Shown here piece after piece: positions 11,887 to 60,857 of a stretch of DNA of 64,000 bases (position 1 is its first letter; the number at the start of each line of letters is the position of its first letter). The stretch is taken from positions 1 through 64,000 of the forward strand of contig JAPOZO010000060.1 in NCBI GenBank assembly GCA_026706025.1, in the 5' to 3' direction. This stretch comes from Candidatus Poribacteria bacterium. GTDB lineage: Bacteria; Poribacteria; WGA-4E; WGA-3G. Both the position numbers and the translations under genes were made by a program. The notes below the pieces were generated by a model. The model was not told the DNA's origin. It searched no databases and worked only from the letters and a program-made list of their open reading frames with translations.

Positions 11887-11986
11887 GAAGTTACCAGTTA
11901 CCAGTTGTCAGTTACCAGAGGGAATAGTAACCAGTTACCAGATTAACTCCCTCTTAACTGGACACTGGACACTGGTAACTCTAAAA
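11887..11986. repeat. TTACCAGTT variant of the palindromic repeat
   Basis: GTTACCAGTTACCAGTTGTCAG on the left is answered by ACTGGACACTGGTAACT on the right. It is a TTATCAG to TTACCAG variant of the family seen at 62-187 and fills the gap between the giant gene and the PorV-like gene. Confidence 0.6.
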
Positions 11987-27509: not shown

Positions 27510-28436
27510 CGTCTATTTTCAATTAGTATAGCACCGTCAAAGCCTCTTTATCAAGTCATTTTTTACGCGAGATCAGGGCTATTTAGTTCTCGGTTTTTTC
27601 GTCCAACTTTGCGGCGTACTCGCCCATAAGCGACCTGCTTTGGACACCCGGGGTCCCCACCCGTTACTGGGAAGGGACCCCGGTAGGTGCAGTTTTGCGG
27701 TGTACCCATAGGTGTCAATTTTAGAAAAAATAACCGTCGCGACCCCCAGGCCGGTAGGTTCGGTTTCTAACCGAACCGGATACTACGCGGAAACCTTGAT
27801 GACTTCAAAACCCTCTTCAGTCCCGTAGGGTTTATTTGCTTGGGTGTTTCTTCACTATGTTTATAGAAAAACGTTGAAAAAAACAATTTAGCCCTGTAAG
27901 GGGTTTTTGATAGGGTGTTTCTTCAGCATGTTTATCTCGATGGTCTATAAAACACTGTCCAAAATCCCTAAATTGACACCTATGGTGCAGTTTTGCGGCA
28001 TACTCGCCCCGGGGAATGCCTACATGAAGTTTAATAAAATATTTGGGTAATTCTATGTTCCTCCAAACCCGGTAGGTGCGGTTTCCTAACCGCACCGGAC
28101 TTCCACAAAAAATTACCCGATTAAATTCTTAATCTTCATTAAGGCATTCATACCGTTGATTCATGCAATCTGCATTCCTAACCGAACCTACACAGAGTGT
28201 CCTATCAATTCTAAACTTTACTATAATATTACTTAGTTTGTGGCACTCTTTCTGTAGCAGAGGCTGTTGGTTTCCTGTGTCAAAAATTTTACACACCCAG
28301 AAAAATAATTTCCCTTTTTTAATTATAATTTATAGTTAGATTCAGACTTTATAATTTTTTATTTGAAAAATTATAATAATTGGCATACCATAACTTATCA
28401 CTTACGCATCAGCACTTTTTATAGTGAAGTTTAGAA
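27510..28436. other. Repeat-rich intergenic region, no gene seen
   Basis: The region carries several copies of the GGTAGGTGCGGTTT..AACCGCACC palindrome (about 27700, 27750 and 28070), copies of the TTGACACCTATGGTGC unit in both orientations (about 27710 and 27975), and two TGGGTGTTTCTTC-type units (about 27840 and 27910). After about 28200 it is very AT-rich with no recognisable unit. No supported gene was found. It forms the left flank of the beta-helix gene pair. Confidence 0.6.
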
Positions 28437-28608
28437 TTATAGTAGAGCCCGTAATTATTTGCACTCATGAAAACCGTAGGCGTGTTTTTGCTTAGAAGAA
28501 ATCCGCAGAAACACCCTATCAAAGACCCCAAGCAAAAACGGTGTTTCTTCGAGGTAACCCAACCCCTACGAGCAACAAGTGTAAACTTATTTTCGGATTT
28601 TACTATAA
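28437..28608. mobile_element. MITE-like element, family 2 (copy A)
   Basis: The ends TTATAGTAGAGCCCG and CGGATTTTACTATAA form an imperfect 15-bp inverted repeat around 172 bp. The subterminal parts GTAATTATTTGCAC and ACAAGTGTAAACTTATTTTC are shared with copies at 36.1 and 38.7 kb. The centre differs, carrying a GTTTTTGCTTAG / CAAGCAAAAAC inverted unit. It has no coding capacity. Confidence 0.7.
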
Positions 28609-28728
28609 TAACCCAAGTTGCTACTAACGGGTTTTTGAGCGTTTCAACACAGTTTTTCAGATACTTTCCCCACCCCAGAGGGGTGAAATTGCTTCGCAGT
28701 GAGAATAGAAAAAGGACGGTAATTTTCA

Positions 28729-31700
28729 ATGAAAAGTTTATTTACATCTCATAAACTGATAGTGGTACTTTTTACCGCGCTATTTACGCTGACGCTCCAC
28801 AATATGAGTACCGCGCAAACGCATATCCATGTAGACGCCGCCAAGGGTGTAAATGCCGCCACCGGCAGAGGTGCCGCAGCCGCGCCGTATAAATCCATTA
28901 CCTACGCCTTGGTGATTAGCGAGAAAAGCGACCTGCCAGCTCCGTGGCATGTCCACATCCACCCCGGCACCTACGATGCGGCTCCCGCGAAACCCGCAAA
29001 CGAGCGCGAGGTTTTCCCGATTCGACTCCGGTCTAAGATGGTTATCCAAGGCACGACCACTGCCACCGACTGTATCCTTGATGCGCAACACCTCGGTGAA
29101 ACCGAAACGCCAATCCTCCTCGGTGAAGATGTCGGAGAGGTCTCCATCCGGAATTTGACGGTTCAGAACATGAATCGGACTGGTACCAGTACTGATGGCG
29201 GTGGCATCGTTTTCTGGGATACGGGGGGCAGGCGTGAGGCTGCCAGCAGCATTGAGACGTGTATCATTCATAATAATGCTCCGAATGGCGTCGCCACGAA
29301 TCTATCGCTTACTCTCACCGGCAACACCTTCAGTAACAATTCCCTCCAAGGGGTGTGGACAAATACGAGCCTGACAGTTCTCAAGAATACCTTCAGCGAT
29401 CATGTCACCGGTCTGTGGATTGAAGGGGACTCAACAGGGTATATCTCCGATAACACCTTTCAGAACAATGTTAGTCATCATAACGCTGGAGGGATCCACG
29501 TAACAGGCACATTAAACGGTAACATTACCCACAATACCTTTACTAACAATCATGGTGATAATGTTGGGGGTGGTTTCGTTGTTCAGAATGGTTTGAACGG
29601 TAACGTCACTCACAATACTTTCACTGGCAATATAGGTAAGGGAGGCAATTCGGCGGGTGGGTTTACAACTATATTGATGACCGGCAATATCACCCACAAT
29701 ACCTTTACCGACAATACCGGTGGTCAAGGCGGGGGATTTCTCGTTCAGCATTTTACTGGCAACATTACTCACAATGAATTTATTAGGAATACGGCAAGAA
29801 GTAGTGGAAGTGGGGGTGGGTTTAGGGCAAACAGTGGAAAAGTTTCCTCCGTTACTCACAATCTCTTTGATAGTAATAGTAATTCAGCCCCGTCGCATGC
29901 CCCCGGCGGGGGTGCCGGTGCGGTCTTGCTGTATAATAATCGTGTGATTTCGGAATTTACCAACAACATTTTCTTTAATAACACTGCAAGTCGCGGTGTT
30001 TCCTCGGTTTCCGTAGATGATGACAATGATGATGCGCCTGCGCGCTTCACGAACAATCTGTTCATGGTTGCTGATGGTCTTTCTGCGGCAGCATCCATTC
30101 CTGCTGTCTTCGTGAATATTCCCGGGAGTCGTTTCCACAACAATATCTTCAGTGGTATGAAGACCGCCATCTCCATCGGCGGTGACCTTGATCTACCCAT
30201 AACCCATAACCTCTTTCACAATATTGGAATGGACTTCGTTAATAGTGTCGGCAACGATTTGGCATTCTGGGAACTCTTGGCGGACGGTGCCAACAATAAC
30301 ATCACAGGCGACCCGCTGCTCGTAGACGCAGCGAATGGCGATTTTCATCCGATTGCGGGGAGTCCTACGATTGATGCAGGCACGAATACATACGCACCCG
30401 CCGATGATTTTGAGGGTGCCGCCCGACCCGCCGGTGCCGCTGTAGATATCGGACCCTATGAATACGGGGCAACAAAACGACCAACCACAGTTGCTGACGT
30501 TCCTACAGACGTTCCCGAAACCGAAACACCAACAATCACTACAGACGTTCCCGAAACCGAAACACCAACGACCGCTGCAACGGTTAACATCTCACCCACC
30601 TCAGTGGCATCAACGGCTGTTGGCGAACAGATGGAATTTTCGCTGAACATCACAAAAAGCGAAACCGTCTCTGGGTATCAGGCAACCCTGCAGTTTGATA
30701 CGACTGCCCTACGTTATGTCTCAAGTGCAAATGGTGATTATCTACCGGCTGGCGCGTTCTTTGTCGAGCCCGTTGTCGAAGGAGATCTCATCAAACTCAA
30801 CGCTGTATCTCTCGCTGGCGAAAGCAAGGGAGACGGCACGCTCGCCACTTTCACTTTTGAAGTGATCGCAGTCAAGGCATCCACTCTAACACTATCTGAT
30901 GTGCTGCTCACGAATACCGCGGGTGAGACTTCCGTTCCGAAAGTTGAAAACGCCGAGATCACTGAACCAACTGCTGACGTTCCCGAAACGACCGCCGCGA
31001 CGGTTAACATCTCACCCGCCTCAGTCGCATCCGCTGCTGTTGGCAAACAGATAGATTTTTCGCTGAACATCACAGGCGGCGAAGCCGTCGCCGGGTATCA
31101 GGCAACCGTGCAGTTTGACACAACCGCCTTGCGGTATGTTTCAAGTGCCAATGGCGATTATCTACCGGCTGGCGCGTTCTTTGTCGACCCCGTCGTTGAA
31201 GGCAATCTCATCAAACTCAACGCTATATCTCTCGCTGGTGAAAGCAAAGGGGACGGCACGCTTGCTACTTTCACTTTTGAGGTGATTGCAGCGAAGGCAT
31301 CCACTTTAACCTTATCTGATGTGCTGCTCACGAGCAGTGCGGGTAAGGCTTTTCTGCCAACAGTTGAAAATGCGGAGATAACGGAACCCACCGGGCTCAA
31401 AGGCGATGTGAACGGTGATGGCGTTGTAAATGTTCAAGATTTAGCGTTAGTTGCTGGACAGTTGGGGCAAACAGGCACAAATCGTGCGGATGTTAACGGC
31501 GATGGGGTCGTCAACGTGCAGGATCTTGCCATCGTTGCGGGTGCGTTAGGCACGACTGCCACCGCACCTGCTCTATATCCGCAAGTCCTACAAATGTTCA
31601 CCGCTGCGGAGGTCAAACAGTGGCTTTCCACCGCACAGCAGTTGGACCTCACGGATACAACGGCACAGCGCGGTATCCTCTTCTTACAACAACTCCTCGC

Positions 31701-32007
31701 AGCGTTGACACCCAGAGAGACAGCACTGCTGCCTAACTACCCAAACCCATTCAATCCGGAGACGTGGATCCCATATCGGTTGGCAAAACCTGCCGATGTT
31801 CGCATCGCTATCCATGCCGCAGACGGTCAGTTGGTTCGGGTATTAGTGTTGGGCAACCAACCTGCTGGTATGTACCAGAGCCGCAGCCGTGCAGCGTATT
31901 GGGATGGCAAAAACGAAGTGGGTGAACCCGTCGCAAGTGGCGTGTATTTCTACACATTGACGGCAGGTGATTTCACCGCAACCCGTAAAATGTTAATTCG
32001 GAAGTAA
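28729..32007 (+). CDS. Secreted beta-helix protein with two cohesin domains, dockerin and sorting tail
   Basis: The 1092-residue product has a signal peptide (residues 1-29, ending STAQ). Residues about 30-590 form a right-handed beta-helix with repeated (N)ITHNTFTNN and DNTFQNN turns, typical of NosD/pectate-lyase-like folds. Two cohesin-like domains follow at about 616-750 and 757-890 (YQATLQFDTTALRYVSSANG, then LATFTFEVIA and LTLSDVLLT). A dockerin lies at about 892-940, with two calcium loops of the form DVNGDGVVNVQDL. The C-terminus from about 1000 has LLPNYPNPFNPETWIPY ... GVYFYTL, a type-A-like sorting domain. ATG 28729 has AAAGGA upstream. It probably lies on the cell surface, where cohesin and dockerin could bind partner proteins. 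Confidence 0.85.
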   Translation: MKSLFTSHKLIVVLFTALFTLTLHNMSTAQTHIHVDAAKGVNAATGRGAAAAPYKSITYALVISEKSDLPAPWHVHIHPGTYDAAPAKPANEREVFPIRLRSKMVIQGTTTATDCILDAQHLGETETPILLGEDVGEVSIRNLTVQNMNRTGTSTDGGGIVFWDTGGRREAASSIETCIIHNNAPNGVATNLSLTLTGNTFSNNSLQGVWTNTSLTVLKNTFSDHVTGLWIEGDSTGYISDNTFQNNVSHHNAGGIHVTGTLNGNITHNTFTNNHGDNVGGGFVVQNGLNGNVTHNTFTGNIGKGGNSAGGFTTILMTGNITHNTFTDNTGGQGGGFLVQHFTGNITHNEFIRNTARSSGSGGGFRANSGKVSSVTHNLFDSNSNSAPSHAPGGGAGAVLLYNNRVISEFTNNIFFNNTASRGVSSVSVDDDNDDAPARFTNNLFMVADGLSAAASIPAVFVNIPGSRFHNNIFSGMKTAISIGGDLDLPITHNLFHNIGMDFVNSVGNDLAFWELLADGANNNITGDPLLVDAANGDFHPIAGSPTIDAGTNTYAPADDFEGAARPAGAAVDIGPYEYGATKRPTTVADVPTDVPETETPTITTDVPETETPTTAATVNISPTSVASTAVGEQMEFSLNITKSETVSGYQATLQFDTTALRYVSSANGDYLPAGAFFVEPVVEGDLIKLNAVSLAGESKGDGTLATFTFEVIAVKASTLTLSDVLLTNTAGETSVPKVENAEITEPTADVPETTAATVNISPASVASAAVGKQIDFSLNITGGEAVAGYQATVQFDTTALRYVSSANGDYLPAGAFFVDPVVEGNLIKLNAISLAGESKGDGTLATFTFEVIAAKASTLTLSDVLLTSSAGKAFLPTVENAEITEPTGLKGDVNGDGVVNVQDLALVAGQLGQTGTNRADVNGDGVVNVQDLAIVAGALGTTATAPALYPQVLQMFTAAEVKQWLSTAQQLDLTDTTAQRGILFLQQLLAALTPRETALLPNYPNPFNPETWIPYRLAKPADVRIAIHAADGQLVRVLVLGNQPAGMYQSRSRAAYWDGKNEVGEPVASGVYFYTLTAGDFTATRKMLIRK

Positions 32008-32009
32008 GT

Positions 32010-32400
32010 GCTGAAAACCCCAGGCCCGGTAGGTGCGGTTTGATGAAGTGTAAGAAAATAAATCGGTAATTCTATATTTTCCCCAGGCCCGGTAGGTGCG
32101 GTTTGCAACCGCACCATAGGTGTCAATTTAGCGGCACCCCAGGCCCGGTAGGTGCGGTTTCTAACCGCACCGGATACTTCGCGAAAACCTTCAGATGCAG
32201 CGTTTGCGGAACACGGGTTCCGCTAAAGAAGAAACCGAGAACGGAATTCAAGAGGAGTTTGAAGTTATTACGGTTGCCGTGTCGTATCCGGTTCGGTTGC
32301 AAACCGAACCTACCGGACCGGGGGATTCAGGCGGTTATTTTTTCTAAAATTGACACCTATGGTGCGGTTTCTAACCGCACCGGATCTTAGGCACAAACCT
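32010..32400. repeat. Cluster of GGTAGGTGCGGTTT palindromic repeats
   Basis: At least four copies of GGTAGGTGCGG with matching CCGCACC or CGAACC arms occur near 32025, 32090, 32140 and 32300-32390. Two TTGACACCTATGGTGC units occur in opposite orientations near 32112 and 32350. The cluster fills the gap between the two beta-helix genes, and no gene was seen in it. Confidence 0.7.
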
Positions 32401-36113: not shown

Positions 36114-36263
36114 TTATAGTAAAATCGGAAAACATGTTTACATTTTTCCCGTTCGTAGGGGCTGGGAATGTAATACAAGGAATGGATTTAGTCTATTCCC
36201 AGACTAAATCCCCCAGCCCCTACGAGTTACCGTGTGTGCAAATAATTATGGGATTTACTATAA
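36114..36263. mobile_element. MITE-like element, family 2 (copy B), supplies the thiO stop codon
   Basis: The ends TTATAGTAAAATCGG and GGGATTTACTATAA form the inverted repeat of a 150-bp element in the opposite orientation to copies A and C. It contains a GTAGGGGCTGGG / CCCAGCCCCTAC inner pair. Its right end overlaps the end of the thiO gene at 36258, and the TAG stop codon comes from the element's TTATAG end. Confidence 0.75.
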
Positions 36264-38720: not shown

Positions 38721-38857
38721 TTATAGTAGAACCCGTAATTATTTCCACACATGGGAACCGTAGTAGGGGTTGGGGGATTTAGTCTGGGGTTAGACTAAAT
38801 CCGTTCCCTGTATTACATTCCCAACCCCTACGAGCGACAAGTGTAAACTTATTTTTC
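38721..38857. mobile_element. MITE-like element, family 2 (copy C, truncated)
   Basis: The left end TTATAGTAGAACCCG and the subterminal GTAATTATTTCCACAC match the other copies. The centre carries GTAGGGGTTGGG / CCCAACCCCTAC and GGATTTAGTCTGGGG. The right side stops at AAACTTATTTTTCG and lacks the terminal TTTACTATAA. The break lies exactly where the 27-bp sequence shared with 37399-37425 begins. Confidence 0.65.
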
Positions 38858-40758: not shown

Positions 40759-40807
40759 AAAAAAGCCGCCTTCCATTTTGGATATATGCCAAAAGGAAGC
40801 AGCTTTA
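40759..40807 (-). terminator. Intrinsic terminator in the thiamine leader
   Basis: On the minus strand, AAAGCTGCTTCCTTTTGG pairs with CCAAAATGGAAGGCGGCTTT around a short loop and ends in TTTTTT. It lies between the TPP aptamer and the ribosome site of the permease gene. It is therefore likely to be the riboswitch-controlled terminator, although a repeat of about 160 bp separates the two. Confidence 0.75.
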
Positions 40808-40967
40808 TTAGTTATCAGAGGAATGGTTATCAGTTCGGTTTTCTCTCACTGCGAGGCATGAAAAACCTTTCAGTTTTCAGAAAGAGAGTTTGGGATTACC
40901 AAAACCTCTTAACTGACAACTGACAACTGATAACTATTAAAACTGACGACTGATAACTACTCTCACT
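40808..40967. repeat. TTATCAGTT-type repeat inside the riboswitch leader
   Basis: GTTATCAGAGGAATGGTTATCAG on one side is answered by TGACAACTGATAACT and CTGACGACTGATAACT on the other. It sits between the TPP aptamer and the terminator on the same transcript. Confidence 0.7.
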
Positions 40968-43386: not shown

Positions 43387-43941
43387 ATGCGAATTCGTTC
43401 AACAACGATCTTAGCCGTTCGGCGCGATGCCCAAGTCGCTATCGCAGGCGATGGTCAAGTCACTTTAGGCGATACTGCGATTAAACACGGCGCACGCAAA
43501 ATTCGCAAAATCCATAACGACAAAGTGCTGATCGGTTTCGCAGGTTCCGCATCGGATGCAATCACACTGTATGAAAATTTGGAGAAGAAACTTGAGCAGT
43601 ACCGGGGAAATCTTCAGAAATCAGCAGTAGAACTCGCACGGGAATGGCGTAGTGACAGAGTCCTTAGACAGGTAGACGCACTAATGATCGCCGCAGATGC
43701 TAACGACAGTTACCTTATTTCTGGAAACGGCGATGTGATCGCACCGGACGACGATGTTGTCGCCATCGGTTCGGGTTCTTCTATTGCCCTCGCAGCCGCA
43801 AAAGCCATGCTCAAATACTCAGACTTGACCGCAAAAGAGATTGTTTCAGAGGCACTTCAACTCACGAGTGAAATTTGTATTTATACCAATGCACGAATTG
43901 AAACTGACACAATAGAGGAGGAGTTATCAGTTAACAGTTAA
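43387..43941 (+). CDS. hslV: HslV protease subunit
   Basis: Start ATG 43387 follows AGGAGAGG. The 184-residue product is the proteolytic subunit of the HslVU ATP-dependent protease. A five-residue propeptide (MRIRS) precedes the catalytic Thr of TTILAVRRD. Family marks are AIAGDGQVTLGDT, KIHNDKVLIGFAGSASDA, ISGNGDVIAPDDDVVAIGSGSSIALAAA and EICIYTNARIE. The end reads IEEELSVNS; the last residues (SVNS) and the stop come from a TTATCAGTTAACAGTTAA repeat that begins at 43924. HslU follows 97 bp downstream. Confidence 0.95.
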   Translation: MRIRSTTILAVRRDAQVAIAGDGQVTLGDTAIKHGARKIRKIHNDKVLIGFAGSASDAITLYENLEKKLEQYRGNLQKSAVELAREWRSDRVLRQVDALMIAADANDSYLISGNGDVIAPDDDVVAIGSGSSIALAAAKAMLKYSDLTAKEIVSEALQLTSEICIYTNARIETDTIEEELSVNS

Positions 43942-44032
43942 CAGTTACAAGCGGGCTCGGGTTCATCAAACACCTTTCGGTAACCCCAACGCCTCTTAAC
44001 TGAAAACTGACGACTGACGACTGATAACTAAC
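43924..44032. repeat. TTATCAGTT-type repeat between hslV and hslU
   Basis: TTATCAGTTAACAGTTAACAG forms the end of hslV, and ACTGAAAACTGACGACTGAC closes the repeat just upstream of hslU. The gap normally found between these paired genes is only a few bases, so the repeat has been inserted or has grown here. Confidence 0.65.
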
Positions 44033-45526: not shown

Positions 45527-45638
45527 GCAGATTGTCCGGGTGATGTTTTCCTCGTACGCATGTGGTGCAATTGGCAAAGAAAATATTAAACCTTATCAGT
45601 ACCGGTTTGTCCAATGGACAAGCAGAGGGAAACTGATC

Positions 45639-46811
45639 GTGCGGCAGCTCCTAATTTTTACCCTTCTATTCATTTATGTCGCGCTCCTACCGAACAGTTC
45701 CGCTCAAGATGGAACACAATGGCGCGCGTCAGAGAGTAGCAAAGCCCCCTCCAATACAACAGCGATAAATGCCATAAAATTCTCCACTGACGGGACACAC
45801 CTCGCTATCGCCATCGCCAATGGTATCACGTTGTACGATACCTATACTGGGAAAGAATTGGCACAGCTCTCTGTGCTGCTGGATACCGTGACCGCGTTAG
45901 CATTCTCGCCTGATAACCGAACAGTTGCAAACGCGAGCGAAGATGCTACTATCCGCCTCTGGGACGCTCACACTGGTGAGCACAGAACAGATTTCATAGG
46001 GCATACCCACCCTGTTGTAACCTTGGCATTCTCACCTGATGGTAACACCCTCGCCAGTGGAAGTTTCAAAGAAATTCGTCTCTGGAACTTAACCACAGAC
46101 CTGCCGATCCGCACCTCAGTCTTTCACGGACACTCGGATATGGTCACCACATTGGCATTCTCACCGGATAGTAAAACACTTGCCAGCACAAGTTTTCACG
46201 GCACAATTTTGTTATGGGATGTAGAAACCAGGCAACGCCGACACAGTCTCCCCGCACATACAGATTCAATCACAGCACTCACCTTCTCGCCTGATAATCA
46301 AACGTTAGCAAGCGGCGGATATTGGAGTCGAGACGCAGAAAGCACAATTCACCTATGGAATACGTACACCGGGCAACTCCTGACAACCATTAAAGGACAC
46401 ACCGAGCCGGTTTTCGCCTTAGCATTCTCACCGGATAGCGAGATGCTCGCAAGCGCGGGTTGGGATAACGCAATTCGTATGTGGCACCCACAGACAGGAC
46501 AATTACAGGCAATTTTTGAAGGCGATACCGCGCCAGTCCTTGCATTAGCGTTTTTACTCGTTAATGGAGGTAAAGAGTCAAGCCATACTTACGGCAGAAC
46601 ACTCGCAAGTGCAAGTCTTGATGGCACAATCCAATTGTGGCCCTTAACATCTATACCAAGACCTTGGGATGTCAACGCCGACGGTGTTGTAAACGTTTTA
46701 GATTTAACCTTTGTTGCCGCACGTTTCGGACAAGTAACACCAGACCTTAACAATGACGGCATCGTCAACATTTTGGATTTGATTATCGTTGCAAATCATA
46801 TCGGAGAATGA
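45639..46811 (+). CDS. Secreted 7-blade WD40 protein with dockerin
   Basis: I place the start at GTG 45639, after GAGGGA, because it gives a signal peptide (MRQLLIFTLLFIYV ... SSAQD) like that of the neighbours. The frame extends upstream to 45540. The 390-residue protein has seven WD40 repeats of the form LAFSPD..TLAS.S.D.TI.LWD, the number needed for one closed propeller. A dockerin follows at about residues 343-390, with loops DVNADGVVNVLDL and DLNNDGIVNILDL. The propeller may bind proteins outside the cell, and the dockerin could attach it to a cohesin. First of three tandem genes of this type. Confidence 0.85.
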   Translation: MRQLLIFTLLFIYVALLPNSSAQDGTQWRASESSKAPSNTTAINAIKFSTDGTHLAIAIANGITLYDTYTGKELAQLSVLLDTVTALAFSPDNRTVANASEDATIRLWDAHTGEHRTDFIGHTHPVVTLAFSPDGNTLASGSFKEIRLWNLTTDLPIRTSVFHGHSDMVTTLAFSPDSKTLASTSFHGTILLWDVETRQRRHSLPAHTDSITALTFSPDNQTLASGGYWSRDAESTIHLWNTYTGQLLTTIKGHTEPVFALAFSPDSEMLASAGWDNAIRMWHPQTGQLQAIFEGDTAPVLALAFLLVNGGKESSHTYGRTLASASLDGTIQLWPLTSIPRPWDVNADGVVNVLDLTFVAARFGQVTPDLNNDGIVNILDLIIVANHIGE

Positions 46812-46870
46812 AGGCTGCATCTTTCATGACCAACCGAAGCACATCGTGCCTGTCACAGGAATAAAAAACA

Positions 46871-48970
46871 GTGAGATACCTTATTTTTACGCTTCTATTG
46901 ATACTGACACTACTTTTGTCAAACGGATATACCCAAGACTACACAACATGGAACTTACCCGAAGGCGCGAAACGACTCATTGGAAAAGGCGAAATAACTG
47001 GCAATATTGCTTTTTCTCCCGATGGCACCCGACTCGCTGTCGCGAGTTCAATTGGCACTTGGATATACGATGCACACACCGGAAAAGAACTCGTATTGCT
47101 CACTGGACACAGTGAACGCATTCGTGCTGGAGCATTCTCTCCAGATAGCAGAATATGTGCCAGTGGAAGTAGCGACAATACGATTCGGTTGTGGGACGTG
47201 TCTACCGGACAACACCTCGTAACACTCACGATGCATAGTGACTCGGTTGAGACTTTAGCGTTCTCGCCGGATGGAAAAACCCTCGCAAGCGGGAGTAGGG
47301 ACAAACGAATCCTTTTGTGGGATGCAGAAACTGGGGAACATCGGAATACGCTCACAGGGCACACCGGTGGCATCAGAGTAGTGGTGTTTTCACCAGATGG
47401 TAAAAACCTTGTTAGTGCAGGTCAGGACGATACAATCCGAGTGTGGGATCCGCGTACAGGCGGGCCCCTCACTACGCTCACCGGTCATACAGGACCTGTC
47501 TCTATTCTGGCATTTTCGCCAGATGGAAAAACGCTCGCCAGCGATGGTGTCGGGCATATGATTCAGCTATGGAACACTGACACTTGGCAGCGGCAGTTAG
47601 CCATCAGAACACACTACGATTCAATCTATACCCTCGCGTTTTCACCAGATGGCAAAACGATCGCGAGTGGCGGCGGTTGGCACGACAACGTACTGAGGAT
47701 GTGGGATGTCTATACTGGCGAACATAAAAATGCGCTCCACGGACACACTGGTAGTATTACCGCAATAGCATTTTCACCAGATGAAGCAACTGTCGCAAGT
47801 GTAAGCAAGGACGATACAATTCGAGTATGGGATTTAAACATAGAACAACCTCGCTTCATTCTCATCGGACATGTAAACGTCGGTACGGAGGTGGTGTTCT
47901 CACCAGATGGCGCGACACTTGCCAGCGGCGGCGATTGGCCCCAGAATACAATCCAATTGTGGAATCCAGACACCGGTGCCTTGAAGGATACCCTTGAAGG
48001 GCATACGGATCGTATCAGTGCATTGGCATTTTCTTCGGATGGCAGAACGCTTGCAAGTGGAAGTTGGGATAAGACGATTCGATTGTGGAATACACACAAT
48101 GCTGAACTCAAAACTACCCTTGAAGGGCAGAGGCGTGAGGTTCAGTCATTAGCGTTCGCACCGGATGGAAAAACCCTTGCCAGTGGAAGCGGTTGGGAAG
48201 ATACAATCATACGGCTATGGGATACGGACATTGCACAGCAAATTGGGAGGCTTGAAACCTACACACGTTGGGTTTATGCATTGGCATTTTCACCGGATAT
48301 CCAAGGCACGTCTGGAATGTTCCTCGCGAGCGGAAGTGGTGACGGCACGATTCGAGTGTGGCATCTCGACTCAGGGAGTGCAACTACAGATAGACCGCAG
48401 ATGACGCTGACAGCGCATCGAGATGGCGTTCTCGCTTTGGCATTCTCACCAGTAGGGGTTGGGTTACCCAACCCCTATAAATATAACTGGATTCTTGCGA
48501 GCGGCAGTCGGGATGGCACGCTCCAATTGTGGAAATTAACTGTGGGAGAACCAACGCCGCGTTCTTTAGCCCTTCAGGGTCATACGGCTGATGTCCAGGC
48601 AGTAGCATTTTCGCCCGATGGAAAAACCCTTGCCAGCGCGAGTAACGACGAAACAATCCGCTTGTGGAATGTCCATTCGGGTGAACACTACAAAACCCTT
48701 TATGGTCACACGGATAGCGTCACTTCACTGGCATTTTCGCCCGATGGAAAAACCCTTGCCAGCGCGAGTTTAGATAATACAATTCTCTTGTGGGAGTTTG
48801 AACCCGAATTGGCACAAAACCGCTGGGATATTAACGGTGATGGACTTGTAAACATTCAGGATTTAACATTAATTGCATCGCAGTTTGGACAGAACACACC
48901 CGATCTTAATGGCGATGGCATTGTTAATATCCTGGATCTGGTACTTATAGCGAACCACCTCGGAAAATAG
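46871..48970 (+). CDS. Secreted 14-blade WD40 protein with dockerin
   Basis: The start is GTG 46871, with AGGAA upstream. The 699-residue product has a signal peptide (MRYLIFTLLLILTLLLS ... TQD), 14 WD40 repeats (two seven-blade propellers) and a C-terminal dockerin at about residues 652-699 (DINGDGLVNIQDL and DLNGDGIVNILDL). Blades 13 and 14 share an identical DNA stretch of about 39 bp at a spacing of 126 bp, a recent blade duplication. Blade 12 reads SPVGVGLPNPYKYNW where SPDGKT is normal, because a palindromic repeat has entered the frame (48453-48477). The strand after LASGSRDGTLQLW remains intact, so the fold may tolerate it. Confidence 0.9.
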   Translation: MRYLIFTLLLILTLLLSNGYTQDYTTWNLPEGAKRLIGKGEITGNIAFSPDGTRLAVASSIGTWIYDAHTGKELVLLTGHSERIRAGAFSPDSRICASGSSDNTIRLWDVSTGQHLVTLTMHSDSVETLAFSPDGKTLASGSRDKRILLWDAETGEHRNTLTGHTGGIRVVVFSPDGKNLVSAGQDDTIRVWDPRTGGPLTTLTGHTGPVSILAFSPDGKTLASDGVGHMIQLWNTDTWQRQLAIRTHYDSIYTLAFSPDGKTIASGGGWHDNVLRMWDVYTGEHKNALHGHTGSITAIAFSPDEATVASVSKDDTIRVWDLNIEQPRFILIGHVNVGTEVVFSPDGATLASGGDWPQNTIQLWNPDTGALKDTLEGHTDRISALAFSSDGRTLASGSWDKTIRLWNTHNAELKTTLEGQRREVQSLAFAPDGKTLASGSGWEDTIIRLWDTDIAQQIGRLETYTRWVYALAFSPDIQGTSGMFLASGSGDGTIRVWHLDSGSATTDRPQMTLTAHRDGVLALAFSPVGVGLPNPYKYNWILASGSRDGTLQLWKLTVGEPTPRSLALQGHTADVQAVAFSPDGKTLASASNDETIRLWNVHSGEHYKTLYGHTDSVTSLAFSPDGKTLASASLDNTILLWEFEPELAQNRWDINGDGLVNIQDLTLIASQFGQNTPDLNGDGIVNILDLVLIANHLGK
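48453..48477. repeat. Palindromic TAGGGGTTGGGT repeat inside a WD40 gene
   Basis: TAGGGGTTGGGT and ACCCAACCCCTA are perfect inverted arms around one base, 25 bp in all. The same sequence appears between genes at 48985-49044 and within the family-2 elements. It is translated in frame as part of VGVGLPNPYK. Confidence 0.85.
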
Positions 48971-48984
48971 GTGAAATCGTGATC

Positions 48985-49044
48985 CGTAGGGGTTGGGTCC
49001 CCCAACCCGTGTATTTCGTAGCGGTTGGGTCCCCCAACCCGCGC
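48985..49044. repeat. Two tandem GGGTTGGGTCCCCCAACCC hairpins
   Basis: Two imperfect copies of GTAGGGGTTGGGTCCCCCAACCC lie near 48985-49009 and 49018-49041, between the second and third WD40 genes and just before the third gene's ribosome site. Confidence 0.7.
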
Positions 49045-49073
49045 AGGCTGAAAACCCTTTTAGGAGGCATTTT

Positions 49074-51203
49074 ATGATCAAGAAAAAACTATCCAATTTC
49101 CTATGCCTGATTTTTGTCACATTCCTCCTATTGGTGCTATTTGCGTTACCACAAAACGTTCACGCCCAAGACTCCCGTTACAGAAATCTGCCTGAAGGTG
49201 CTAAAGTTCGGTTCGGCAAAGGTTTTATTACCGATATAGAATTCTCACCGGATGGCACACAGTTTGCTGTCGTCAGTTCAATTGGAGTTTGGCTCTACGA
49301 TGCGCGCACCCATGAAGAAATCGCTCTGCTCACCGGACATACAGGCTGGGTTCAGGCAGCTGCGTTTTCACCGGACAGTATGACACTTGCCAGTGCCAGC
49401 TTGGACCGCACAGTTCGGATCTGGGATGCTAAAACCGGACAACACCGGACTACGCTCTATGGACATGAGAATTTTGTCTATAGCGTTGCGTTCTCCCCAG
49501 ACGGAAAAACGATCGCGAGTGCGAGTTCAAATGAGATTCGCTTGTGGCATGCAAATACCGGCAGACAGAAGAACGTCCTGGCAAGACATGCGAGGTGGAC
49601 ATACGCCTTAGCATTTTCACCAGATGGAAAGATCCTCGCCAGTGGAGACTCAGAGGGCGACATCCAACTCTGGGATCCATCCGCGGGTAAATTGATGAAG
49701 ACGCTCGAAACTAATCTGGGTTTCCTCTATGGACTCGTTTTCTCACTGGACAGCGCAACCTTGGCAGCGAGTGGTTCTGGCACCACCATCCTTTTGTGGG
49801 ATGTTGGGACAGGTCGCCAATTATCAACCTTCATGTTCGGAGAAAGCACTCGCGGCATTCCCGCACTTGCGCTCTCGTCCGATGGCACAATATTGGCGAG
49901 TGGACATCGGGATAACAAGGTGCGTTTGTGGGATGCTCGCACTGGGGGGCTTAACGCAACGCTTGAGGGACATACTGCCGACATCCGGGCACTCGCCTTC
50001 TCACCTGATGGCGGAGACGCTTCTGGAACAACGCTGGTCAGTGCAAGTGAAGATAGCGTGCTTCATTTTTGGGACACCCAAACTAAAGAATTTCAGACAC
50101 CCCTTACAGGGTGGACAGAAGGGTTCACGACGCTGGCACGCTCACCTGATGGCACCACTATTGCCAGTGGAGGGGGTTCACGGGGCAACTTCGTTCGCTT
50201 GTGGGATGCGTCTACAGGGGAACTCCAAGCAGTCCTTGACGGGCACACCGATCTAATTGCAGCTGTGGCATTCTCACCAGATGGGACAACTCTCGTCAGT
50301 GCAGATTGGGATGGCATGATGTACCTATGGGATACCTCCACCCGAGAACGATATGTTACACTCTCTGGGCATACGGGAAGGATCTTTGCCGCCGTTTTTT
50401 CTTATGATGGGAACAGACTTGCCAGCGTCAGTTATGATGATACCATTCGAGTATGGGATACGCACACTGGCGAACTGCAAGCTACCTTTGACAGGCAAGA
50501 GGCAGATGGGTTAACGTTTTTGCATGATGGCAGCCTGCGTGCCTGTGGGGGATGGAAGGGACCCGAAACACTCCGGGTGTGGGATGTCTATACAGAAAAA
50601 TCCGTAACCCCCGAAATCGGTAGAGGACTTGATCCAGGACTCAACACCGTCGTCGCGTTCTCACCGGATAAGAAAACGATTGCCATCGGAACCCACCGCG
50701 GCGGCATTAGTTTGTGGCGCGCAGACACGGGCGAACATGTCCTCTACTTTACGAGAGGACACGCACATGATGTCACAACCTTGGCATTCTCGCCAGATGG
50801 CAGTCTACTCGCCAGCGGTAGTTACGACAACACCATTCGCCTCTGGGAGGCATCTACCGGCGATCAAATTGCCCTCTTAACAGGACACACGAACGTGCTT
50901 TCAATTACAAGTGCTGCTGCTATCAGCACCGTTTCATTTTCACCGAACCACACATCTCCAGATTTCGATGCAACCGCCGATTGGGACCTTGCCAGTTCAA
51001 GTCATGATGGCACAATTCTCTTATGGGACCTCGCGCCGTCCCTTGCACAAACGCCGTGGGATGTCAACGCTGATAGTGTTATAAACATTTTGGACGTCAC
51101 CTTTATTGCCTCACGTTTCGGGCAGAAAACGCCAGACCTTAACGGTGATGGCATCGTCAATATTTTGGATCTGGTACTCGTTGCTCAGCACCTTGGAGAA
51201 TAG
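49074..51203 (+). CDS. Secreted 14-blade WD40 protein with dockerin
   Basis: Start ATG 49074 follows AGGAGG. An upstream frame to 48993 only reads through the hairpin repeat. The 709-residue product has a signal peptide (MIKKKLSNFLCLIF ... NVHAQD), 14 WD40 repeats and a dockerin at about residues 661-709 (DVNADSVINILDV and DLNGDGIVNILDL). The first dockerin loop has Ser in place of the usual Gly after Asp, which may weaken calcium binding at that loop. The N-terminal RYRNLPEGAKVRFGKG is shared with the neighbouring family members. It is probably a surface interaction scaffold. Confidence 0.9.
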   Translation: MIKKKLSNFLCLIFVTFLLLVLFALPQNVHAQDSRYRNLPEGAKVRFGKGFITDIEFSPDGTQFAVVSSIGVWLYDARTHEEIALLTGHTGWVQAAAFSPDSMTLASASLDRTVRIWDAKTGQHRTTLYGHENFVYSVAFSPDGKTIASASSNEIRLWHANTGRQKNVLARHARWTYALAFSPDGKILASGDSEGDIQLWDPSAGKLMKTLETNLGFLYGLVFSLDSATLAASGSGTTILLWDVGTGRQLSTFMFGESTRGIPALALSSDGTILASGHRDNKVRLWDARTGGLNATLEGHTADIRALAFSPDGGDASGTTLVSASEDSVLHFWDTQTKEFQTPLTGWTEGFTTLARSPDGTTIASGGGSRGNFVRLWDASTGELQAVLDGHTDLIAAVAFSPDGTTLVSADWDGMMYLWDTSTRERYVTLSGHTGRIFAAVFSYDGNRLASVSYDDTIRVWDTHTGELQATFDRQEADGLTFLHDGSLRACGGWKGPETLRVWDVYTEKSVTPEIGRGLDPGLNTVVAFSPDKKTIAIGTHRGGISLWRADTGEHVLYFTRGHAHDVTTLAFSPDGSLLASGSYDNTIRLWEASTGDQIALLTGHTNVLSITSAAAISTVSFSPNHTSPDFDATADWDLASSSHDGTILLWDLAPSLAQTPWDVNADSVINILDVTFIASRFGQKTPDLNGDGIVNILDLVLVAQHLGE

Positions 51204-51421
51204 AGGGTGACCTATAAAGACTAAGCAGATACGTCTTCCTGTAGGCGCACTTTCCACGAGCGTTCGTCTTTACAGCATTAAGTCCTGGTAAATAGACCTT
51301 TTCGATTTTCCGTCAGGTGCTGAACCCGTAGGCGTTTTGCTTGGGTATTTCCGCGGATTTCCCCAGGGTTTCCCGCCCGTTATCTATCATCGATGAACCT
51401 TTTAAACTTGTTGGAGGAAAT

Positions 51422-52228
51422 ATGAAAATCAGTCTAATGAAATTTCTATCGGTATTCTTTTCTGGCATCCTTTTACTATCCGGCTGCGGCTCCGATACCC
51501 CCGAAAGTGATGAAACCATTGTCACACCCACGCAAGAAAAAAAGATACCGAGCTATTATCCTGATGCTATCGGTAACCGGTGGGCTTATCGAGAAGCGGA
51601 TGGGTTTGAATGGGAGCGAACAGTTTCAAGAGAACGCATTATTCAAGGGAGAGTTTACCGTGTTTTTGACTACAATCCGCCTATTGAAAACACGCCATTT
51701 GACTATCTAAAAACGCCATCTTATCGTGTCACACAAAATCGAGTGCTTTTCTTTGTAGGTGAAGAAATTAATCGCTATTTTGAAGTTGATTTCGCAAATG
51801 CACTGAGGACGCAAGTATTTCCGGGTGAAAACATTGAAGTTGAAGTGAAAGCAGTCTCGGAACATGAACTTGTGTTCTTTCGTATCCCGCCAATCGGTAA
51901 TTTGCGATGGGATGTCCTTGATCTGAAAGTCAAAGGGAATATCGTCTTCCTGGATTTAGATGGACTCAAACTTCCATTTGAGATACATCATCTGATAACA
52001 GGAGCTGTTGTTGGTGGCGGCTCAATCCAAACACCAGCGGGCACTTTTGAAACGACTGCTAAAGTTGAATACAAATCACAAATCACCACAAGTATCTTGG
52101 ACGAAGCGGAGACAACCACAGAAAAAACTGATACTATCTGGCTTGCACCTGATGTCGGCATCGTCAAATTACAAAATCCAGATCGGACAGTTGAGTTAAT
52201 TGAGTATTCTCTACAAGAAGAACTTTGA
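51422..52228 (+). CDS. Lipoprotein of unknown function
   Basis: Start ATG 51422 follows GGAGG and gives 268 residues. The signal ends in the lipobox LLSGCGS (Cys near residue 22). A polar segment leads to a beta-rich domain beginning YYPDAIGNRWAYR and containing VFDYNPP, NIEVEVKAV and IQTPAGTFETTAKVEY. Its end, IWLAPDVGIVKLQ, is a pattern I have seen in secreted proteins of unknown function. No catalytic residues were recognised. It stands alone between the WD40 array and sppA. Confidence 0.75.
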   Translation: MKISLMKFLSVFFSGILLLSGCGSDTPESDETIVTPTQEKKIPSYYPDAIGNRWAYREADGFEWERTVSRERIIQGRVYRVFDYNPPIENTPFDYLKTPSYRVTQNRVLFFVGEEINRYFEVDFANALRTQVFPGENIEVEVKAVSEHELVFFRIPPIGNLRWDVLDLKVKGNIVFLDLDGLKLPFEIHHLITGAVVGGGSIQTPAGTFETTAKVEYKSQITTSILDEAETTTEKTDTIWLAPDVGIVKLQNPDRTVELIEYSLQEEL

Positions 52229-52391
52229 TCCTTCAGCTCTTCAGAGCGGAGGTGTTGATTTGACAGCAAGCCTCCTTAAAACCCGCGTCATCTGCATAAT
52301 CCGTATCATCAACGATTTAAAGAAGAAAAAGAGAACGCATCTCAATCCTAACGCTTGACAAATATTTATACACCGCAAAAGAATTTGCAAC

Positions 52392-52420
52392 TTGACACAC
52401 TCTCCATCTTGTGGTAGAAT
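52392..52420 (+). promoter_or_regulatory. Promoter of sppA
   Basis: TTGACA (52392-52397) and TAGAAT (52415-52420) are separated by exactly 17 bp. They lie about 40 bp upstream of the sppA start codon. Confidence 0.7.
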
Positions 52421-52459
52421 AGCATCGTCAAATCAGATACAAAAAAGAAGGACAAATCC

Positions 52460-54292
52460 ATGAAATTATTAAAAACGTATGCCTCTCTACTGATACTGTT
52501 TCTCCTCGTTTCCCCGATATTTGCTGAGGGACACGCAGCAGAAGAAACACCGCCTCCCGTTAAGAAATACGCTGAATTCACACTGAGCGGCACCTACGCC
52601 GACACCAAGACAGTCAGCACATTCGGTGCCTCCTCAACAAAGACACTGCGGGGACTTTTTAAGAAATTAGATGCCCTCCAAACAGACGATGATCTCGCTG
52701 GTATTATCTTCAAAATAGAAGGGGTTAGCGTAGGATGGGCAGTGCTTCAAGAAATCCGCACCAAACTAAACGAATTCCACGAAACAGGAAAAGAGACGAT
52801 CGGTTATCTCGAAAGCGGTGGTAATGCCGAGTACCTTCTTGCTGCGACAATGGATCGCATCGTCCTAATGCCTACCGGAAGCCTCAATTTAACCGGTTTA
52901 CGTGCTGAAATCCTTTTCTATAAAGGGCTGCTGGACAAACTGGATATTGAGGCAGATATGCTGGCAATGGGAAAATACAAATCTGGTGTTGAACCCTATA
53001 TGCGTGACGGTATGTCGGATGAATTTCGTGAGTCGATGACTGCGCTGCTTGATGATCTGTACACCCAATTCCTGAACCACATCGCTGAAAATCGAGACGG
53101 TATCACCGAAGCAAGTGTTGCGAATTTAATCAACAGCGGTCCGTTCACAGCAGAAGAGGCAGAGGAGAAAAAATTAGTTGATGCTTTACAATACTACGAC
53201 GAATTGGTAGCCTCACTGAAAGCAGCATCTCCAGACGAAGATGTTCAAGTTGCCAAACCCGGATATGAGCGCAAACGAAAAGTGCCGGATATGAACAGTT
53301 TCGCCGGACTTATGCAGCTATTCAGTATATTGAATCCGCCCCAACGTGCGCAAGCTGCATCGGAAAATCAGATCGCGCTTATCTATGCCAGCGGCCCCAT
53401 TTTACCCGATATTGACTCACCTTTCATCTCAATGTCAGCAATTACGCCAAAAGAACTAAAGAAGGCATTTGAAAAAGCACGCACGGATGATTCCGTTCGG
53501 GCAGTCGTGCTACGTATTGACAGTCCCGGCGGTTCCGCACTCGCTTCAGACTTAATTTGGCGAGCGGTGATGCTCACACAACGCGAAAAACCGGTCGTCG
53601 TTTCCATGGGAAATGTCGCTGCCTCCGGTGGTTACTATATTGCGATGGCAGCAGGGACAATCATCGCACATCCGAGTACACTGACAGGTTCAATCGGTGT
53701 ATTCGGCGGTAAACTGAATCTGAAGGGACTCTACAATAAAGCAGGTTTGACAAAGGAGATCATCGCACACGGTCAGAACGCTACCTTGTATTCGGATTAC
53801 GGCGGTTTTACACCCACCGAGCGGGAACGCGTCGAAAAGATGATGAAGACCGTCTATGAAGATTTTGTCAACAAAGCAGCAACAGGAAGAAATAAATCCT
53901 TTGACGAAATCGACGAAATCGCACAAGGACGTGTTTGGACAGGTAAACAGGCGAAGGAGATTGGGCTTGTCGATGAAATCGGAGGACTTGATACTGCGCT
54001 GTCTATCGCGAAGAAACAGGCAGGGTTTGCCGAGGCGGACGAAGTTGGCCTTATCGTCCTACCGAAGCAGCGTCCGTTTTTTGAACAAATCTTAGAGCAG
54101 ATGATCGAAGATACAGACGGTTCAATCCGTAGGGGCTGGGTTACCCAGTCCCTACAATTCACCGCCAACCATCCTGTGTTATCTATGTTAGGCACGCCAT
54201 CACAGCATATTATCACGTGGTTGAACCTGTTTGGCTTTGAGAATGGCACACAAATCGTAACAATTTTACCTTATGATATTTTAATTCGGTGA
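52460..54292 (+). CDS. sppA: Signal peptide peptidase SppA (67K type)
   Basis: The 610-residue product is an envelope protease that degrades cleaved signal peptides, with duplicated N- and C-terminal halves. It starts with a hydrophobic signal/anchor (LLKTYASLLILFLLVSPIFA). The catalytic Lys174 is in GKYKSGVEPYMR and the nucleophile Ser389 in GNVAASGGYYIA. RIDSPGGSA and LTGSIGVFGGK support the assignment. Near residue 557 the palindrome GTAGGGGCTGGGT..CCC is translated in frame as part of IRRGWVTQS, so the C-terminal region is altered or extended. A strong promoter lies upstream, and the next gene begins 4 bp after the stop. Confidence 0.92.
   Translation: MKLLKTYASLLILFLLVSPIFAEGHAAEETPPPVKKYAEFTLSGTYADTKTVSTFGASSTKTLRGLFKKLDALQTDDDLAGIIFKIEGVSVGWAVLQEIRTKLNEFHETGKETIGYLESGGNAEYLLAATMDRIVLMPTGSLNLTGLRAEILFYKGLLDKLDIEADMLAMGKYKSGVEPYMRDGMSDEFRESMTALLDDLYTQFLNHIAENRDGITEASVANLINSGPFTAEEAEEKKLVDALQYYDELVASLKAASPDEDVQVAKPGYERKRKVPDMNSFAGLMQLFSILNPPQRAQAASENQIALIYASGPILPDIDSPFISMSAITPKELKKAFEKARTDDSVRAVVLRIDSPGGSALASDLIWRAVMLTQREKPVVVSMGNVAASGGYYIAMAAGTIIAHPSTLTGSIGVFGGKLNLKGLYNKAGLTKEIIAHGQNATLYSDYGGFTPTERERVEKMMKTVYEDFVNKAATGRNKSFDEIDEIAQGRVWTGKQAKEIGLVDEIGGLDTALSIAKKQAGFAEADEVGLIVLPKQRPFFEQILEQMIEDTDGSIRRGWVTQSLQFTANHPVLSMLGTPSQHIITWLNLFGFENGTQIVTILPYDILIR
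54129..54155. repeat. Palindromic GTAGGGGCTGGGT repeat inside sppA
   Basis: GTAGGGGCTGGGT pairs with ACCCAGTCCCTAC (one mismatch) around one base, 27 bp in all. It is read in frame within sppA. The sequence belongs to the same family as the copies at 48.4 and 49.0 kb and in the family-2 elements. Confidence 0.8.
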
Positions 54293-54296
54293 TCTT

Positions 54297-55139
54297 ATGA
54301 AATCTAAGAGTGAATTTTCGGCGCAGCTTGCAAGCCGAAACTTGCTTGACAAAAGCCACGTAGACCTAACTGACGAACAGGTCGCTTTTTTTCAAGAGAA
54401 CGGATACCTGAGCATCCCGCGCATCACGACGGATGAAGAAATCGAATGGCTTAAAGGCATTTACGATGAACTTTTCACGGAACGAACCGGAGAGGCGCAA
54501 GGACGTTACTTTGATCTCGCTGGCCCGCGTGCGCACAACGGGCGGGAGACGTTACCGCAAGTATTGGGGCCTGAGGCACAATTCCCTGAACTCCGCGAGA
54601 CTGTCTATTTCCAAAACGCCCAACGACTCGCCGCAAAGTTGCTCAGCGTAGAGGCTGAAAAAGTCAGCGGTGGCGGACACATGATTTTGAAACCCGCACA
54701 CTACGGCAATGAAACGCCGTGGCATCAGGACGAAGCGTACTGGAACCCCGAAGTCCTACCACACAGCCTAAGCGTCTGGCTACCGCTTGATAAAGCAACG
54801 CTTGAGAGCGGATGCCTCCAATTCATCCCAAAATCGCACAAAGGAGAGGTGCGTTGGCATCGGCATATTGACAATGATCCGCTCGTACACGGGTTAGTGA
54901 CAGATGATGTTGACATATCGGAGGCAGTTGCCTGTCCGATACCCGCAGGCGGTGCAACGTTCCACCACTGCCGGACTTTACACTATTCCGCCCCTAATAG
55001 CACGGCAGCAGCACGTAGGGCATATATCCTCGTCTTCGGCAGTCCACCGAAAAAACTGGATAAGCCAGCACACCGTCCGTGGCAGAAGGAAGAGCAAGAA
55101 GCACTCTCGAAACTGGAGTCTTTGGCGGCAAATTCGTAA
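54297..55139 (+). CDS. Phytanoyl-CoA dioxygenase family (PhyH) protein
   Basis: The 280-residue product is an Fe(II)/2-oxoglutarate dioxygenase. It has the QVAFFQENGYLSIPR opening, the iron-binding His and Asp in PWHQDEAYW, the distal His near TFHHCRTLHYSAPN, and an Arg in AARRAYIL for 2-oxoglutarate. These enzymes hydroxylate small molecules; the substrate is not deducible. The start lies 4 bp after sppA, so they may be co-transcribed, though the functions are unrelated. The family is large in sponge-symbiont genomes as far as I know. Confidence 0.88.
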   Translation: MKSKSEFSAQLASRNLLDKSHVDLTDEQVAFFQENGYLSIPRITTDEEIEWLKGIYDELFTERTGEAQGRYFDLAGPRAHNGRETLPQVLGPEAQFPELRETVYFQNAQRLAAKLLSVEAEKVSGGGHMILKPAHYGNETPWHQDEAYWNPEVLPHSLSVWLPLDKATLESGCLQFIPKSHKGEVRWHRHIDNDPLVHGLVTDDVDISEAVACPIPAGGATFHHCRTLHYSAPNSTAAARRAYILVFGSPPKKLDKPAHRPWQKEEQEALSKLESLAANS

Positions 55140-60714: not shown

Positions 60715-60857
60715 CCATCAGCCATCAGCAGTCAACTATCAGAGGACTGGTTATCAGTTATCAGTTACAAGAGATTTTTGATAATCCCAACGTGAATACT
60801 GATAACTGAAAGATTTTTTCGCAGAAAAAAATCGTACTGACGACTGATAACTGATCG
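60715..60857. repeat. TTATCAGTT-type repeat with inner hairpin
   Basis: TTATCAGTTATCAGTTACAAG is answered by ACTGACGACTGATAACTG. An inner hairpin (GATTTTTTCGC with GCAGAAAAAAATC, about 60810-60832) follows. It separates two converging genes. Confidence 0.7.

Follow-up and report, generated by a model that had tools for sequence, protein, structure and literature searches.

A GTAG-headed palindrome family in frame within protein-coding genes of Candidatus Poribacteria

Protein-coding palindromes had previously been described chiefly in Rickettsia, along with scattered cases of repetitive extragenic palindromes (REPs) headed by GTAG. The Rickettsia palindromic elements (RPEs; Ogata et al, 2000, 2002) are, according to a later account (PMC10969869), ~150 bp long, comprise ten families in these alphaproteobacteria, lie in frame within unrelated protein genes, presumably where folding tolerates them, and are patchily distributed among orthologues. 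REPs usually exceed 100 copies per genome (PMC2817692). GTAG-tagged ones also occur inside genes, for example in uvrA of Opitutus terrae, and different REPs lie near the same recB site in two Xanthomonas species (PMC3733652, in which Poribacteria are unmentioned). Here, we describe a 27-nt palindrome family in the 6.27-Mb genome of a Candidatus Poribacteria bacterium, two copies of which lie in frame within genes of a 64,000-nucleotide stretch of contig JAPOZO010000060.1 (the window). Poribacteria are sponge symbionts. The palindrome is probably a dispersed, non-autonomous, REP-like element with a GTAG head, which swaps out target bases and is kept in loops and termini that tolerate insertions and deletions.

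In-frame palindromes and their empty alleles

The family pattern, GTAGGGGYTGGGTNACCCARCCCCTAC, is in frame in a gene for a WD40-repeat protein and in sppA (Table 1). A sequence-only reading of the window had drawn attention to a perfect 25-bp palindrome in the former; it is present (48453–48477), perfect save for its unpaired centre base, and extends to 27 bp (GTAG...CTAT). The 27-bp relative that had been placed in sppA likewise lies in frame within a long open reading frame (ORF), with one mismatched pair. Further copies reported between genes and inside elements termed family 2 were also recovered, the former as two related GTAG-headed hairpins, the latter as palindrome arms split by a 45-nt insert. 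An Rfam search of window positions 46000–55000 gave no match.

The genome was surveyed by pattern searches and in fetched stretches. With ≤3 mismatches allowed, GTAGGGGYTGGGTNACCCARCCCCTAC had 37 copies, as opposed to none for the reversed-pattern control. Together with sister families, which differ from it symmetrically on both arms (TTGGG, CTGGG, TTAGG, TTCGG, CGAGG), about 47 copies were found in the fetched stretches, about 14 of them verified as genic and about 30 intergenic or borne by miniature inverted-repeat transposable elements (MITEs). The half-site GTAGGGGTTGGG (≤1 mismatch) occurred 10 times in the window, compared with 0.22 expected from shuffling. That G-rich codons merely happen to be self-complementary, without any repeat element being involved, would agree with the few copies in the window; these counts and the orthologues lacking the residues leave this explanation practically no probability, and chance sequence was ruled out by the empty alleles together with the copy number. 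Within the genus, 23 of 24 genomes carried the family, as did four of six from one other genus of the same order, whereas it was absent from all 10 genomes that represented other genera.

In either orientation, the palindrome is open in two of three frames, encoding VGxGLPxPY or RRGWVTQPL; the third frame is a TAG stop. Two close orthologues of the WD40 gene (L060 and L061; 84–85% identity) read TCACCA-AACAGCACGGCTC-AATATAAC where the window reads TCACCA-GTAGGGGTTGGGTTACCCAACCCCTATA-AATATAAC, a net difference of +15 nt. The corresponding residues of the relatives are SP-NSTAQ-YN, without a palindrome, and in the predicted window protein NSTAQ has become VGVGLPNPYK. The SPDGKT turn that had been proposed as the replaced segment is not what true orthologues have at this place, which is NSTAQ or NSTPQ. 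In the AlphaFold2 model, the inserted residues 528–537 are predicted to form a low-confidence loop between strands 520–525 and 538–546. Three WD40 proteins, each with a dockerin-like end (DVNGDGVVNxxDL...), are encoded in tandem at 45540–51203 of the window.

For SppA, relatives from 32 Candidatus Poribacteria loci (68–95% identity) were compared. The GTAG palindrome was found in 8 of the 33 alleles, in some of them degraded but in frame in all. In seven alleles, this position was taken by another in-frame repeat (GGAAGGTTGGAAGATTGGAAG...), which is itself dispersed in these genomes, and the remaining 18 had neither repeat and read SIQL/V-PLQL. The insert is predicted to lie in a low-confidence linker between helices 540–553 and 563–570 (AlphaFold, mean pLDDT 55, hence indicative only).

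In this genome, at least 12 further proteins contain an in-frame palindrome that is absent from orthologues. By Pfam, proteins with in-frame copies include a LarA-like protein, MurJ, CarB, Ham1/RdgB, KsgA, hydantoinase A (HyuA), BatA/vWA, and a second WD40 protein; further in-frame copies lie in proteins without an assigned family. Orthologues from the same genus, some bearing the palindrome and others lacking it, were retrieved for the LarA-like protein, MurJ, RdgB, CarB, and KsgA, and among about 69 alleles measured in five genes all length differences were multiples of three. As each of these five proteins has one full match in this genome, the decorated copy is probably the only one. In alignments, the inserts of KsgA, LarA-like protein, MurJ, and CarB coincide with gaps between conserved segments of solved homologues. 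At one locus (L074, position 4035), the TAG of the palindrome serves as the stop codon of the gene, and relatives end at the same point with TAA or TAG. The interpretation that the palindromes give rise to new peptide segments and leave the frame intact was supported by empty orthologues for both window genes and for the other proteins; relatives of WD40 or SppA having the same residues without the palindrome were not found.

All records are metagenome-assembled genomes, so that an assembly or binning artefact had to be considered. Several independent assemblies share the insert at an identical codon, reading frames are intact, and two single-contig genomes (G005 and G010) carry the family, the former at orthologous sites (L226, L243, L261). 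An artefact is therefore exceedingly improbable, and was ruled out by the independent assemblies and the single-contig genomes.

Table 1. Palindromes, host genes, and related elements (window positions unless a locus is given).
Feature	Position	Strand	Basis
WD40-repeat protein gene, C-terminal dockerin-like segment, 699 aa, hosts palindrome	46871..48970	+	long ORF, PF00400, AlphaFold2
27-bp palindrome GTAGGGGTTGGGTTACCCAACCCCTAT, in frame, encodes VGVGLPNPY(K)	48452..48478	+	WD40-dockerin protein; orthologue comparison
Two intergenic GTAG-headed hairpins of the same family (GTAGGGGTTGGGtccCCCAACCC, GTAGCGGTTGGGtccCCCAACCCGC)	48986..49044	+	palindrome and half-site searches
SppA-like peptidase S49 gene, 610 aa, palindrome downstream of S49 domain	52460..54292	+	ORF, PF01343
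27-bp palindrome GTAGGGGCTGGGTTACCCAGTCCCTAC, in frame, encodes (I)RRGWVTQSL	54129..54155	+	comparison of SppA alleles
Lone palindrome arm GTAGGGGTTGGG adjoining GAAGAAA..CCCAAGCAAAAAC repeat	28558..28569	-	half-site search
GTAGGGGCTGGG/CCCAGCCCCTAC arms split by 45-nt insert, apex of MITE-like element	36155..36223	.	half-site search
GTAGGGGTTGGG/CCCAACCCCTAC arms split by same 45-nt sequence, opposite orientation to 36155..36223	38763..38831	.	half-site search
MITE-like elements with TATAGTAAAATC ends, palindrome at apex	L070:4004, L076:4046, L078:4041, L079:4051, L084:3940, L093:4055, L096:4079		

Replacement junctions, recurrent sites, and decay

An empty allele could be aligned at 14 sites, both coding and non-coding; at every one of these, 5–18 nt of that allele were gone and the 27-bp palindrome stood in their place. 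The net gain was between +9 and +22 nt, and +12, +15, or +18 nt in genes; a clean +27 insertion was seen at none of the 14 resolved sites, although it would also have kept the frame. The event is thus a replacement and not the simple insertion that had been assumed from the sequence of the window, which speaks against a final step of simple transposition.

The same protein loops are occupied by unrelated repeat families in related species, as was observed for SppA, CarB, RdgB, and KsgA. CarB has a double GTAG palindrome in this genome, a CAGTTACCAGT-type repeat in three relatives, and a GGAAGAATGGAAG-type repeat in another. The RdgB site also holds a double GTAG palindrome here, and TCAGTTGTCAGT, GTAGGGATAGGTcttgtACCTATCC, or CGGCTATCGGCT repeats in relatives, while it is empty in others; KsgA alleles are empty, short-loop, palindrome-bearing, or composite. 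Repeats of the GGAAG type number ~50 copies per 5.8-Mb genome, and by a rough estimate over ~14 genomes, chance alone would bring one to within 60 bp of the palindrome at roughly 0.7% of sites; such a coincidence was seen at two of about 10 coding sites. Tolerance of the loops is the simplest reason for their recurrent occupation. The CAGTTACCAGT-type sequence, in frame in CarB of L145, L146, and L158, is related to a dispersed inverted repeat family (CAGTTATCAGTTA-type), which is found in the window at 82–196, 11889–11980, 40800–40945, 43922–44029, and 60750–60855.

At the LarA-like site, three alleles (L110–L112) contain hybrid palindromes, one arm of which corresponds to a 33-bp form (GGGGAAACYGGGT) and the other to the 27-bp form, which suggests arm exchange or template switching. 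Such alleles would agree with a local origin of the palindromes by template switching at quasi-palindromes (hairpin correction), without any dispersal. However, the same 27-bp sequence resides at dozens of unrelated loci, which is beyond the reach of local correction, and none of the 14 empty alleles holds a quasi-palindrome of this sequence; a purely local origin is therefore quite improbable.

The palindromes might also be kept for a function, either as an mRNA hairpin acting in pausing, stability, or regulation, or as a useful peptide. Intact hairpins are indeed strong (−19 to −22 kcal/mol), and when palindromes shared by two species were compared, 6 of the 44 changed pairs differed on both arms, compared with 2.4 expected. 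The other 38 changes were one-sided, which looks like decay and not like a conserved hairpin; as a sign of the latter, compensatory change is weak. The palindromes are, moreover, patchy among orthologues, and unrelated repeats take the same sites, which renders maintenance for a function unlikely. Most likely, the putative added peptide is tolerated rather than useful.

Carriers, candidate mobilizers, and mode of spread

At least seven palindrome copies are located at the apex of 96–112-bp MITE-like elements with TATAGTAAAATC inverted ends (Table 1), and about nine more have one recognizable TATAGTAAAATC end; such ends are missing from solitary and genic copies. The 45-nt sequence that splits two copies in the window (GGATTTAGTCT...AGACTAAATCC) constitutes a nested element, enclosed by a palindrome that is in turn enclosed by a MITE-like element.

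That the palindrome is a true GTAG-REP, moved in trans by a resident REP-associated tyrosine transposase (RAYT; HUH/Y1) cutting at GTAG, is conceivable but doubtful. In its favor, the palindrome has a GTAG head, Y1 transposases are present in 22 of the 24 genomes, several RAYT-type loci are flanked by other GTAG-REPs (GTAGGTKCGGTTT...AACCGMACC), and in the vicinity of one RAYT-like locus (L276) there is a GTAGGCGAGGTT..AACCTCGCC hairpin that closely resembles the sister GCGAGG family. GTAG also pre-exists at two empty sites, the LarA-like one and an intergenic one. However, most empty sites lack GTAG, and the palindrome carries GTAG at both ends, whereas REPs have a one-ended head. Insertion by the IS200/IS605 family is clean, unlike the loss of target bases at every junction resolved here. 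Flanking repeats, tried as a link to a RAYT, led only to other GTAG families: none of the 53 Y1_Tnp loci inspected, which are a part of all Y1 matches, was flanked by the palindrome (GTAGGGGYTGGG). A separate GTAG-REP family, GTAGGTKCGGTTTNNNAACCGMACC, flanks RAYT-like Y1 loci (L064:1357–1914, L065, L214, L223, L274, L275) and is clustered in the window at 27754–32361.

Four points weigh against the palindrome being a dispersed REP-like element that replaces its target. As no Y1 transposase or other mobilizer in the 53 inspected loci is flanked by the family, its mobility can be concluded only from its distribution, and its copy number of ~32–47 is below the REP norm. GTAG/CTAC microhomology at empty sites was not significant (p = 0.09 and 0.14), so that neither transfer model is directly supported. 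Finally, the empty alleles have diverged by roughly 5–25%, and some of the replaced bases could be later indels or small deletions.

A REP-like element spreading by replacement nevertheless remains the favored explanation. The short GTAG-headed palindrome would disperse through the genome and sometimes land in genes, each landing exchanging a short target for 27 bp, as the empty alleles of relatives show. Only in-frame landings in indel-tolerant loops or protein ends would persist; this pattern is seen, and purifying selection would account for it. Later changes would then degrade the palindrome without closing the frame. Some copies evidently spread as passengers at the apex of the ~100-bp MITE-like elements. 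Solitary copies may be transferred as single strands by a GTAG-recognizing RAYT that acts in trans, or may be copied as templated patches where replication or repair leaves gaps, and the replacement junctions fit the latter better. A literature search for short-patch illegitimate recombination gave nothing useful. We tentatively suggest, as one possibility, that a palindromic single strand is patched over the 5–18-nt target rather than inserted. If so, patched palindromes would form a class moved by templated patching and not by transposition, and would keep supplying essential proteins with new loop peptides at recurrent sites.

Comparison with known systems

The principle is already known from RPEs and intragenic GTAG-REPs, and the poribacterial palindrome works like these. 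The likeness to REP- or RPE-type repeats that the sequence-only reading had proposed holds for an in-frame, peptide-creating palindrome, but not for strict membership in either class, be it for copy number and a cognate RAYT (REP) or for size (RPE). In its GTAG head, hairpin, and length it conforms to the REP layout, in which a GTAG or GTGG head precedes a hairpin within 20–40 bp. Like RPEs, the palindrome lies in frame in unrelated proteins and is missing from some orthologues; with 27 bp it is far from their ~150 bp, carries GTAG at both ends, and swaps out its target, a comparison that draws on the published description of RPEs.

Intragenic GTAG-REPs (PMC3733652) share with it the GTAG head, the hairpin of 20–40 bp, the dispersal, and the location of some copies in ORFs or at an ORF's TAG stop, as here at L074. 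In contrast to these, the poribacterial palindrome is nearly perfect, has GTAG on both strands, and is without a RAYT with matching flanks among the inspected loci. As to the REP/RAYT system (PMC2817692), these genomes do contain RAYT genes along with other GTAG-REPs that belong to them, whereas the 27-bp family was not found to flank any RAYT among the inspected loci. The apical copies resemble MITEs with TA-type ends (IS630/Tc1-mariner-like, by resemblance of the terminal inverted repeats only), from which the gene-borne copies differ by lacking such ends.

What the poribacterial case adds to these systems is the phylum, before-and-after alleles in core genes, replacement junctions, and the reoccupation of the same sites by several unrelated families. 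With such alleles available genus-wide (KsgA, CarB, MurJ, RdgB), the origin of new protein segments becomes directly testable, as do the role of loops as recurrent landing sites and the spread of palindromes by replacing versus inserting DNA.

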